Assembly: GCA_038873195.1 (NCBI GenBank)
Contig: JAVZEV010000001.1
Coordinates: 1,268,490-1,332,489, forward strand
Source of the DNA: Candidatus Bathyarchaeia archaeon
GTDB lineage: Archaea > Thermoproteota > Bathyarchaeia > Bathyarchaeales > Bathycorpusculaceae
Direction: 5' to 3'
Length of the DNA: 64,000 nt
Position 1 is the first letter of the stretch, and each line of letters opens with the position of its first letter. The position numbers and the translations under genes are program-made. The notes beneath the pieces are model-generated. The model was not told the origin of the DNA. It made no database searches and was given only the letters and a program-made list of their open reading frames with translations. Of the stretch, positions 7,252 through 10,758 are shown in pieces.

Positions 7252-7695
7252 TCATTTCCGGAAAGGAAATGGCAACAACTCCTTAATACTCTTTACTTCA
7301 ACGGTTTCAAACAGGATTTTGCCATTTTTTGCTTTTGCCATGAGGATTTTAATTTTGGGATTTTCTGCAAAGTCATAAATGTACTGTAAGCATGCTCCGC
7401 ATGGTCTGGGTTCTTTATTTGCATTTGCATTCATAACGAGAGCTACTGCTTTGATTTTGCAGTTTCCATGTGAGATTGCGTGGTTTATTGCGCATCTTTC
7501 TGCGCATATGCCAAGTCCAGAAATCCAGCTTTCCACGTTACAACCGCCATAGATTTTTCCGTCTTCTGCGAGGACAGCAGCGCCAACTTTGATGCCCCAA
7601 AGAACATACGCGTTATCCATGGCTTTTAAGGCGGTATTTAGCAATTCGTTTTCTATTTTATTCAGCTTAACCATGGCATTCACTTTCTGCTTCAT
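7252..7695 (-). CDS. cdd: Cytidine deaminase
   Basis: Zinc enzyme of pyrimidine salvage converting cytidine or deoxycytidine to uridine forms. The 147-residue protein has the CAER active-site motif (zinc Cys and catalytic Glu) and the PRPCGACLQ motif giving the other two zinc cysteines, in the spacing of the tetrameric Cdd family. The region before CAER, SWISGLGI, differs from the common NASYGLTI pattern. Its ATG overlaps the ABCE1 stop in an ATGA arrangement (7692-7695), so it is probably cotranscribed and translationally coupled. Confidence 0.9.
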   Translation of the reverse strand: MKQKVNAMVKLNKIENELLNTALKAMDNAYVLWGIKVGAAVLAEDGKIYGGCNVESWISGLGICAERCAINHAISHGNCKIKAVALVMNANANKEPRPCGACLQYIYDFAENPKIKILMAKAKNGKILFETVEVKSIKELLPFPFRK

Positions 7696-9479
7696 TTTCG
7701 CAGCTCACGTACGTAATAGTACTCTCCAATTTGTTTTTGAAACTTGTCCAACTTCGAGTTTTCCTTGTTAACTCTCGGTCTTTTCGTAGTTGGGTCTCTT
7801 CGGAAAGTGACTTCCATATCCTTCAAAAACATGTTCATCCCATCTCTCAAGCTTGTAGGCGGGTTTGCAATTCCCTTCACTCCGGGTTCTCCTGTGAAAA
7901 TCATTAGGCGGTCTGCTATGAAGTCTTGGGCAACCACGTCATGCTCGACGACGAAGGCTGTCACGTTGTGTGCTTCTACGATTCTTCTGATGGTTCGTGC
8001 CATGCTCAATCGTTCTTCAACGTCTAAGTAAGCGCTTGGCTCATCAAGTAGGTATAGTTGGGCTTTACGCGATAAGCAAGCGGCAATGGCGACCTTTTGT
8101 AGTTCGCCGCCGCTGAGTTCAGTTAGATTTCTATCTAGAAGAGGTTCTACATTTAGGGGTTGAAGGATTTCTGTTTTGTACCAGCTTGAGGTGAAGTTTT
8201 CTTTTGCGATATTTTTCAAGAGCTCGTGGACTGTGCTTTCGTATTCTGCGGAAATGTATTGGGGCTTGTAGCTTACTTCTAATTCTCCAAATTTGATTCC
8301 GCCATTTGCCTCTTCGATTCCGGCAAGGATTTTCACAAAGGTTGTTTTTCCAATACCGTTAGGTCCGAGAATGCCGATGATTTCGCCTCTCTTTATTTCT
8401 CCTGGGCTTGCGACAAGCTTAAACCCTTCATAGGTTTTCTCGATTTGTCCCCATTTTAGTTGTGTTTCGCCGGCGCCAAAGCTTGTTCGCGGGGGTTTCT
8501 CGTGAAATATTATGGCTTCTTTTCTGAATCTGACGTTCTCGTCTGGGATGTAACCTTCTAAGTAAATGTTTATTCCTGTCCTTACGCCGTGAACGTTGGA
8601 AACTACGCCGTAGACGCCTGGTTCTCCGTAAAAAATGCAGATTTGGTCTGATAAGTAGTCTATTATTGCTAGGTCATGTTCCGCTACAATAACTGTTTTT
8701 TCTTCATTCTTTAGGCTCCTTATTGCCTTAGCTACTTCCAATCTTTGTTTTACGTCTAAATAGCTTGATGGTTCGTCAAAAAGGTACACGTCAGCTTCGC
8801 GGCAAATTGCTGCTGCTACAGCTACACGTTGCAGTTCACCTCCGCTTAAAACGTCTAATGAGCGGTTCCAGAGTTGTTTCAGTTCAAGTTGTTTAGAGAT
8901 TTCTTCGAGTTTCTTGCGTTCGTTTACTTTTTCGAGTAGTTCTCCAACTTTTCCAGACACGGCTTTTGGAATTTTGTCTACGTATTGTGGCTTATGTGAA
9001 ATTTTGAGTTTGTTTTCGCTCATCTTTTGGAAATATTCTTGGAGTGTTGACCCTCTATAATGTGTGATTATTTCGTTCCATTCTGGTGGCGTTTCGTAAT
9101 TTCCAAGGTTTAGTTTGGTTTCTCCGGAGAGTATTTTGAGTGCTGTTGTTTTGCCTATTCCGTTTTGTCCAAGCAATCCCAAAACCGTGCTGGGGGCTGG
9201 TGTTGGTAGTCTGTAGAGTTTGAATGTGTTTTCTCCGAAGCGGTGGCTGCAGTCTTTTTCTAATTCGTCTGGAAGGTTGACTATGGAGATGGCTTTAAAC
9301 GGGCATTTTTTTACGCATATTCCACATCCGGTGCAGAGAGATTCAACAATTACGGCTTTGTCATCTTCAAATCGTATAGCTTCAACGCGCGTGCGCACTA
9401 TGGGGCAAAAGTGATGGCATAGTCTATTGCAACGTTTTGGCTTGCACTTGTCAAAGTCTATCACTGCAACTCTCGTCAT
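7692..9479 (-). CDS. ABCE1/Rli1 ribosome-recycling ATPase
   Basis: Twin-ATPase that splits post-termination ribosomes. The N-terminus carries two iron-sulfur clusters: the atypical CKPKRCNRLCHHFCP region and a ferredoxin motif CTGCGICVKKCP. Two ABC domains follow. The first has Walker A GQNGIGKTT and signature LSGGELQRVA; the second has GPNGIGKTT and LSGGELQKVA. Both have DEPS-x-YLD Walker B motifs and the ABCE-specific hinge. The ORF opens at 9491, but the ATG at 9479 (MTRVAVIDFD) matches the family N-terminus better. A TATA box lies about 50 bp upstream. Confidence 0.96.
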   Translation of the reverse strand: MTRVAVIDFDKCKPKRCNRLCHHFCPIVRTRVEAIRFEDDKAVIVESLCTGCGICVKKCPFKAISIVNLPDELEKDCSHRFGENTFKLYRLPTPAPSTVLGLLGQNGIGKTTALKILSGETKLNLGNYETPPEWNEIITHYRGSTLQEYFQKMSENKLKISHKPQYVDKIPKAVSGKVGELLEKVNERKKLEEISKQLELKQLWNRSLDVLSGGELQRVAVAAAICREADVYLFDEPSSYLDVKQRLEVAKAIRSLKNEEKTVIVAEHDLAIIDYLSDQICIFYGEPGVYGVVSNVHGVRTGINIYLEGYIPDENVRFRKEAIIFHEKPPRTSFGAGETQLKWGQIEKTYEGFKLVASPGEIKRGEIIGILGPNGIGKTTFVKILAGIEEANGGIKFGELEVSYKPQYISAEYESTVHELLKNIAKENFTSSWYKTEILQPLNVEPLLDRNLTELSGGELQKVAIAACLSRKAQLYLLDEPSAYLDVEERLSMARTIRRIVEAHNVTAFVVEHDVVAQDFIADRLMIFTGEPGVKGIANPPTSLRDGMNMFLKDMEVTFRRDPTTKRPRVNKENSKLDKFQKQIGEYYYVRELRK

Positions 9480-9530
9480 GTCTCTTCCCATATCATAATG
9501 TCAACTAGTATGGTCTAAACATAAACATCA

Positions 9531-9544
9531 AAATTATATAAAAA
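9531..9544 (-). promoter_or_regulatory. TATA box of ABCE1
   Basis: Minus-strand sequence TTTTTATATAATTT is a strong archaeal TATA element centred about 58 bp upstream of the preferred ABCE1 start at 9479. It would place transcription start near 9512. It lies between the micro-ORF and ABCE1, so ABCE1 has its own promoter. Confidence 0.55.
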
Positions 9545-9601
9545 CCGTTTGAATATTCTCATAAAGAAAGATACAAAAAAATTCTAGATGATGCTAAATA
9601 T

Positions 9602-9670
9602 TTACCATTCTTCCTCTTCCCACTCTTCTTCTTCCCATTCCTCTTCTTCCCATTCTTCTTCCTCTCGCAT
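9602..9670 (-). CDS. EEEEW-repeat microprotein, 22 residues
   Basis: The ORF ATG...TAA encodes M-R followed by four perfect EEEEW units, ending on the last Trp. A textbook ribosome-binding site, GGAGGTGA, stands four bases upstream of the ATG. All base differences among the four 15-nt units are GAA/GAG third-position changes, so the peptide repeat is exact while the DNA is not. A TATA-like CGTATAAAAATG lies at about 9731-9742, roughly 65 bp upstream. It sits alone between the isoaspartyl peptidase (end) and ABCE1 (promoter). No known family is recognised; the peptide would be extremely acidic with regularly spaced Trp. Confidence 0.65.
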   Translation of the reverse strand: MREEEEWEEEEWEEEEWEEEEW

Positions 9671-9798
9671 TTTTTCACCTCCACTTGTTTTATGTTTAGG
9701 GATGCAAGAGAAACCTACCGTTGCTTTAAGCATTTTTATACGTCAGTTGTCGAGAATAGCAACCAAAAATCTTGTTCGCTTACGTATTTTTGGATGCT

Positions 9799-10758
9799 TT
9801 ATTTCACGATTTTAGCTGTTAAAGAAGCAACTGGCTCTTTTTTTTCTTGCGTTAGGTATGCCCAGCACATGTTTGGCGAGCTGTGGGCTGCACCAATTCT
9901 TCCTTGAGCGTCAACCGCGATTAATCCCATGGAATTGTAAGTGGCTGACATTCTCTTGTTTACGAGACTTATAGCTGATTCAACAGCCTCTTGCGCACTT
10001 TTTCCCATTTCAATATAGTTACAAACTGTTTTCGCCAGAACAAGCCGTATGGCTATTTCGCCAACACCTGTGGCTGAGCATGCTCCAGCTTGATTGTCTG
10101 CGTATGTGCCGCATCCTATCAGCGGAGAATCACCGATTCTTCCTGGAAGTTTTAATGGGAACCCACCGGTTGAAGTTGCTGCTGCGACATTTCCATCTTT
10201 GTCTAATGCAACAGCACCTACGGTTTCAAGCTCGAAAAATTCTGGGTGATTTTTAACTAGATTATACAGTTTTGGCAGCTCAAACTTGCCTTCAAGAAGG
10301 ATTTTCTTCTGTTGCTCATGATACTTTAGCCTGAGCTCCGTTACGGGGCTTCTTCTTTCAAGGTTGAAAATTTTGGCAAGTTTTTCTGCGCCTTCGCCAG
10401 CCACGAAAACATGGTCTGTTTTTTCCATAACTATTCTTGCCAAACGGACAGGATTTTTAATGTCTTTCAAAAGGCTTGCAGCGCCAGCTTGCAACGTTTT
10501 TCCATCCATAATTGACGCTTCCATCTCCACCTGTTTTTCAATGTTAAGGGTCGAACCGTAGCCTGCATTGAACGCGCCGTCATCTTCCATGACTACGACA
10601 GCCTCCATGACGCTGTCAACAGCACTGCCGCCATTATTTAAAATTTCAAAACCAGTTCTTGCTGCTCTTTTGACTCCTTCCAATCCTGGTTGGCTGCGTT
10701 CAGGTTGCCATGTACCGGCTCCGCCGTGAACTACGATTACGGGCTTTTTTTCTGTCAA
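9799..10758 (-). CDS. Isoaspartyl peptidase / plant-type L-asparaginase
   Basis: N-terminal nucleophile hydrolase that removes isoaspartyl residues or hydrolyses asparagine after autocleavage into two chains. The HGGAG motif (11-15) and the cleavage/nucleophile region TVGAVALDKDG (nucleophile T179) are present, followed by AAATSTGG and the oxyanion GCGTYAD segment. The residue before the nucleophile is Glu178, where the best-studied enzymes have Gly. Length (319) is normal. The TTG start is supported by AAGGA upstream and by the MTEKKP opening. Confidence 0.9.
   Translation of the reverse strand: MTEKKPVIVVHGGAGTWQPERSQPGLEGVKRAARTGFEILNNGGSAVDSVMEAVVVMEDDGAFNAGYGSTLNIEKQVEMEASIMDGKTLQAGAASLLKDIKNPVRLARIVMEKTDHVFVAGEGAEKLAKIFNLERRSPVTELRLKYHEQQKKILLEGKFELPKLYNLVKNHPEFFELETVGAVALDKDGNVAAATSTGGFPLKLPGRIGDSPLIGCGTYADNQAGACSATGVGEIAIRLVLAKTVCNYIEMGKSAQEAVESAISLVNKRMSATYNSMGLIAVDAQGRIGAAHSSPNMCWAYLTQEKKEPVASLTAKIVK

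Follow-up and report, generated by a model that had tools for sequence, protein, structure and literature searches.

Sequence evidence for a Thermoproteota family of Glu/Trp microproteins often encoded upstream of the ribosome recycling gene ABCE1

Comparison of archaeal sequences indicates that a 22-codon gene on the minus strand of the 64 kb stretch of DNA analysed here (the window), at 9602..9670, is real and is a member of a Thermoproteota family of Glu/Trp microproteins of roughly 20-50 residues. Its assignment draws on the sequence, the family and purifying selection. On the minus strand it reads ATG (9670-9668), CGA, four units and TAA (9604-9602), that is MREEEEWEEEEWEEEEWEEEEW-stop, or MR(EEEEW)4*. 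The four units of the 15-nt type, GAGGAAGAAGAATGG, GAAGAAGAGGAATGG, GAAGAAGAAGAGTGG and GAAGAGGAAGAATGG, differ by GAA/GAG exchanges alone. Re-reading matched exactly the four EEEEW repeats of the original prediction, and the ribosome-binding site and TATA-like element that it had described were likewise found. The Shine-Dalgarno sequence GGAGGTGA (9675..9682) is separated from the ATG by 4 nt (AAAA), and the TATA-type promoter element TATAAAAATGCTTAAAGC (9723..9740) lies about 55-70 nt 5' of the ATG. A palindromic element TCGACAACTGACG (9741..9753; consensus TCGNCANNTGNCG), present in one copy in the window genome, abuts the TATA on its upstream side. A T-run 3' of the stop codon (9575..9581) is a probable transcription terminator, and ABCE1 has a TATA-like element of its own (9534..9547, TTTTATATAA region); both were assigned by sequence and a shuffle test, and all of these elements are on the minus strand.

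The microgene lies in a gap flanked by an Asparaginase_2 gene on the 5' side (9799-10758; Pfam 7.5e-97) and by ABCE1 (RNase L inhibitor, the ribosome recycling ATPase; 7692..9491) as the next gene 3', all three on the minus strand. The ABCE1 product contains a Fer4_RLI domain (Pfam 1.9e-10) and two ABC domains (ABC_tran, 9.3e-43); its true start is likely at 9479 (MTRVAV), and its closest matches come from Candidatus Bathyarchaeota genomes, which points to a probable bathyarchaeal host. When the window was scanned for tandem arrays, the EEEEW array scored best (93), and a search of the 1.63 Mb genome for GAR4-TGG-GAR4-TGG returned the microgene as the single occurrence, with none for the reversed control.

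The extent of the family was assessed by a survey anchored on ABCE1, in which the motif was not assumed and 800 nt upstream were scanned at 45 archaeal loci, the window included. An acidic microORF was found within 800 nt 5' of ABCE1 at 31 of the 45 loci, against none on the reverse strand; of these 31, a terminal W is present in 30 and a terminal EEEEW in 29. Complementary counts came from the DNA pattern GANGARGANGARTGGTRR, which matched in 145/257 class genomes and 178/397 phylum genomes, upper estimates that include some ordinary protein ends or frames continuing beyond TGG; the reversed-pattern control matched in a handful of class genomes and in a few dozen phylum genomes at most. Curation by composition reduced 154 loci to 122 distinct acidic tails, spread over about 32 family labels by hand tally, in a genome sample that is uneven and in which the EEEEW pattern biases the C-terminus of pattern-found loci. 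The nearest relative encodes an identical 22-residue protein with one synonymous difference, and because relatives share the microgene, the repeat is far beyond chance.

The large family label f29, which probably corresponds to the ammonia-oxidising Nitrosopumilaceae, gave zero GANGARGANGARTGGTRR matches; two further labels appear to be Thermoproteaceae-like (f35) and Sulfolobaceae-like (f41). In genomes without the exact motif, a search that relaxed the C-terminus showed EEEW-ending variants at 3 of 29 ABCE1 loci (L265, L267 and L285) and no microORF variant at the other 26. Asgard genomes gave one pattern match each in 14 of 119, with few control matches; these are raw matches, from which we claim no relationship. 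Two bacterial genomes had zero pattern matches. Phage origin was rejected, as no phage DNA matched and the pattern matches in viral contigs were larger ORFs or unrelated frames.

The 122 tails are 12-47 residues long (median 24) and comprise 2297 E, 474 W, 179 D and 7 K, along with some F, G, L and P; R, H and C are absent. Hydrophobic residues are most often five apart, within a range of 4-9. Tryptophan is commonly swapped for F or L, and WW doublets occur in some families, so the exact fourfold repeat is one local version of a more relaxed rule. As far as the sequences tell, this rule consists of acidic runs, a hydrophobic residue every 4-9 positions and an acidic-acidic-W end, nearly always ...EEW. 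The exact EEEEW x4 peptide of the original prediction therefore stands for the window and fails as a description of the family, in which the near-invariant part is the C-terminal EEW; the phylum-wide spread and the linkage to ABCE1 go beyond that prediction. EEEW forms the last four residues in 117 of the 122 tails, partly by search design since most loci were found with that ending; the W-terminal figure of 30/31 is free of this bias because those loci were anchored on ABCE1. The first 30 codons contain acidic residues in succession, as in acidic leaders, and an acidic stretch and a hydrophobic free C-terminus are present, as in stalk-like ligands. We infer that the microprotein is probably disordered and that it may be abundant. 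Arg is absent from the acidic tail and Lys nearly so, and standard trypsin proteomics therefore cannot cut it there.

The claim of a translated microprotein under protein-level selection was supported by relatives, which keep the frame, the start and the ribosome-binding site and in which changes are mostly synonymous, with W to F/L and E to D among the replacements. Substitutions were scored as codon columns, a safer measure than pairwise counts, which are non-independent. Group B (three sequences) showed seven synonymous-only columns and no nonsynonymous one, and group C (nine sequences) seven synonymous and two nonsynonymous columns, the latter both within the first two residues. The more divergent group D had nine nonsynonymous columns, mainly in N-terminal residues, E/D exchanges and a G/I spacer. 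The synonymous fraction expected without selection is about 17-20%. Over the 60 nt 3' of the stop codon, the close groups share just 44-58% identity (ungapped). The microgene is thus constrained at the protein level.

Gene signals were then compared in 60 distinct Bathyarchaeota-type loci with mononucleotide shuffles, promoter calls being consensus-based. A Shine-Dalgarno sequence within 16 nt of the microgene start was present at 40 loci (1.5 in shuffles), a TTTAAA-type TATA at -80..-35 at 51 (7.1 in shuffles), and a U-run within 60 nt 3' of the stop codon at 58 (25.8 in shuffles). A separate TATA at -60..-25 of ABCE1 was found at 37 loci, compared with 4.6 in shuffles. From these signals, the microgene appears to be self-contained, with its own promoter, ribosome-binding site and terminator. 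The palindrome TCGNCANNTGNCG also lies directly 5' of the microgene TATA at many family loci (e.g. L012, L026, L046, L049, L053, L091 and L096) and may be an operator, the site for a regulator.

Genomic position was examined across the family. In a sample that is partly ABCE1-anchored, 81 of the 122 distinct tails lie 5' of ABCE1 on the same strand, with a median gap of 129 nt; in f41 the stop codon precedes ABCE1 by about 41-50 nt. In several orders (L148, L160, L162, L166, L170) just one small RPB9/TFS-like zinc-ribbon gene stands between the microgene and ABCE1; it belongs to a conserved ABCE1 neighbourhood that also includes genes for an eS17-like ribosomal protein and a phosphoribosyltransferase-like product. 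The microgene is away from ABCE1 in f35, f44, f46, f49, f55, f58 and f71. In f35 (L150, L151, L154-L157, L159) it lies 5' of, and on the same strand as, the gene for S-adenosylmethionine decarboxylase (polyamine synthesis), and other relocated copies are near EF2 and ribosomal proteins uL3/uL4/uL23, neighbour names being read from sequence. The gene immediately 3' of the microgene runs on the opposite strand in f28 (L166, L169-171), f46 (L144-147), f49 (L140), f55 (L120) and f71 (L163), and at L034/L205 one opposite-strand gene and another gene separate the microgene from ABCE1. One genome appears, by reading of the sequence, to hold a decayed copy beside ABCE1 (L014) and has an intact copy elsewhere (L204). 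An opposite-strand neighbour 3' of the microgene, or relocation of the microgene, indicates action in trans in several lineages: a purely cis-acting leader peptide is ruled out where the cis target is missing, and there the microprotein must act in trans.

On the basis of these findings, we propose a standalone, trans-acting microprotein whose EEEEW-COOH end would dock on ABCE1 or another stalk-binding factor, a reading based on analogy to which we give a probability of roughly 0.35. The closest working analogy would be the tail of the ribosomal stalk. The aP1 tail SEEEALAGLSALFG binds aEF1A, aEF2, aIF5B and aABCE1, and its last three residues are required for aEF1A binding (PMC6791870). The tails of aP1 and P1-P2 resemble the microprotein in that an acidic stretch leads into hydrophobic residues at the free C-terminus; they differ in being part of a structured stalk protein, with a Leu/Phe motif and no Trp repeats, and no homology was found. 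By this analogy, a disordered microprotein with acidic stretches, Trp about every five residues and a free EEEEW carboxy-terminus would serve as a multivalent acidic-aromatic ligand. Its C-terminal EEEEW would dock in a basic/hydrophobic pocket on a translation factor, for which ABCE1 is the leading candidate, much as the aP1 tail docks to its factors, and docking would tune ABCE1 recruitment or hold ABCE1 off ribosomes. Points in favour are the 31/45 anchored loci, the fixed W end, the linkage, the shuffle-tested signals, selection and the trans evidence. Against ABCE1 as the target, the EEEEW end lacks the Leu/Phe pattern of aP1 tails: that motif was absent from the 122 tails, whose residues are E, W and few F/L. 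The relocated copies and the 26 of 29 ABCE1 loci without a microORF also count against it. ABCE1 has no strict need of the microprotein, because many lineages lack the microgene, and a conserved neighbourhood can outlast function. The more specific idea of a phylum-wide free-peptide regulator of ribosome recycling, in which EEEEW-COOH would compete with the stalk for binding to ABCE1, and perhaps to further stalk-binding factors, would be a trans-acting peptide control of translation; it has no known counterpart and is rather unlikely.

The main rival, possible but doubtful, keeps a standalone microprotein and gives it a target other than ABCE1: a general chaperone or counter-ion of acidic-aromatic type that would act on basic proteins (those of the ribosome or chromatin, or short K-rich microproteins), on polyamines or on metals, with proximity to ABCE1 reflecting inherited gene order. 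Eukaryotic histone-chaperone and activation-domain motifs, in which acidic residues and scattered aromatics bind basic partners, offer a comparison. The original prediction had suggested basic proteins, RNA-binding surfaces or metals as possible ligands. The tails made almost solely of E and W, the relocated copies by speD, EF2 and uL3/uL4/uL23, and a K-rich microORF directly after the acidic one in L087, L203, L206, L118, L119 and L255 would fit such a role, but pure electrostatics leaves unexplained both the fixed C-terminal Trp (30/31) and the tight long-term linkage to ABCE1, and the window genome has no basic partner adjoining the microgene. A cis-acting leader peptide, in which the acidic run would destabilise or slow ribosomes and termination at EEEEW* would set readthrough into ABCE1 in an MgtL-like autoregulation of recycling, is decidedly improbable. 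Acidic leaders do destabilise ribosomes, as in the intrinsic ribosome destabilisation of MgtL/MgtQ (PMC11282234, PMC8092293), and they control mgtA and are sensed by the ABC-F protein EttA (PMC11282234; for mgtQ, PMC8092293). Those leaders resemble the microgene in being short acidic ORFs 5' of another gene, with a translation ABC ATPase, EttA, involved for MgtL (PMC11282234, PMC8092293); they differ in acting in cis, whereas several lineages retain the microgene although it has no cis target there. A position directly 5' of the gene for a ribosome-splitting factor, fixed residues at the stop codon and a T-rich tract between the microgene and ABCE1 speak for a leader, and the short gap in f41 means that a cis role could still apply there. 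However, a separate TATA precedes ABCE1 in 37/60 loci, the microprotein is kept where a same-strand downstream gene is missing or unrelated genes intervene, and tails reach 47 residues. Taken with the microgene's own promoter and U-run and the opposite-strand neighbours, this suggests that it is not the 5' leader of a regulated gene on the same transcript.

Two further explanations dispense with the peptide altogether. An RNA- or DNA-level element, such as an anti-SD decoy made by the purine-rich GARGARGARGARTGG repeat, with the peptide incidental, would suit repeats that are purine-rich and SD-like; it is very improbable given that GAT/GAC (Asp) replaces GAR and Phe/Leu codons replace TGG with residue class maintained, that frame, start, Shine-Dalgarno sequence and stop position are maintained, and that nonsynonymous change is confined to the first residues in group C and is nil in group B. 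A functionless tandem repeat arising by chance or slippage would agree with the genus-specific exact x4 form and with the tendency of repeats to expand, but the Shine-Dalgarno sequence, promoter and C-terminus are conserved phylum-wide, and we regard its probability as negligible; a chance repeat was refuted by the relatives and by the ABCE1-anchored survey, which carry the family. The confidence not placed in docking on ABCE1 or a stalk-binding factor, in the acidic-aromatic chaperone or in the cis leader goes mostly to other targets.

The microprotein gave no match at E<=10 in Pfam, NCBIfam or PDB, searches whose sensitivity is limited by low complexity, and no description of the family was found in the open-licence literature, where 'EEEEW' led to no biologically relevant paper. 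PBP1 and PBP2, the small subunits of Sulfolobus PolB1, are said to be small crenarchaeal partners of an essential enzyme, as the microprotein might be, and PBP1 reportedly has an acidic tail; to our knowledge neither consists of Glu-Trp repeats. A 22-codon gene beside an essential ribosome-recycling factor has seemingly been missed by annotation in much of an archaeal phylum, a caution that conserved genes can be hidden by low-complexity filters and gene-length cut-offs. With its near two-letter alphabet of Glu and Trp, it is an extreme conserved case of a probably disordered functional microprotein, and it raises the testable question of whether a small acidic peptide controls ABCE1 in Thermoproteota.

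Oppositely charged microprotein pairs occur in f44 and in some of the Bathyarchaeota, f4 among them. In these, an acidic microORF ending in ..EEEW or EDEW is followed by a Lys-rich microORF after 0-55 nt (L087, L203, L206, L255, L118, L119, L080, L089) or at a wider spacing of about 75-155 nt (L084, L086, L207); examples are MRNYSEEEEWEEEEEEEW then MPKKKKGKKKGKGKEK, and MSKKKPAKKEEEEEEEEEEEPEEEEEW then MAEKKKKPAKKKPEEKKEW. The sole acidic-basic match in the window genome lies inside a long ORF resembling a copper ATPase and was dismissed as chance. A lone microORF, MPKKKKEEKKEEKKEEKK, was also found near a hypA-like gene in G116 (L256), and similar ATGCCAAAGAAGAAG starts are present in G117-G119, G133 and G134.
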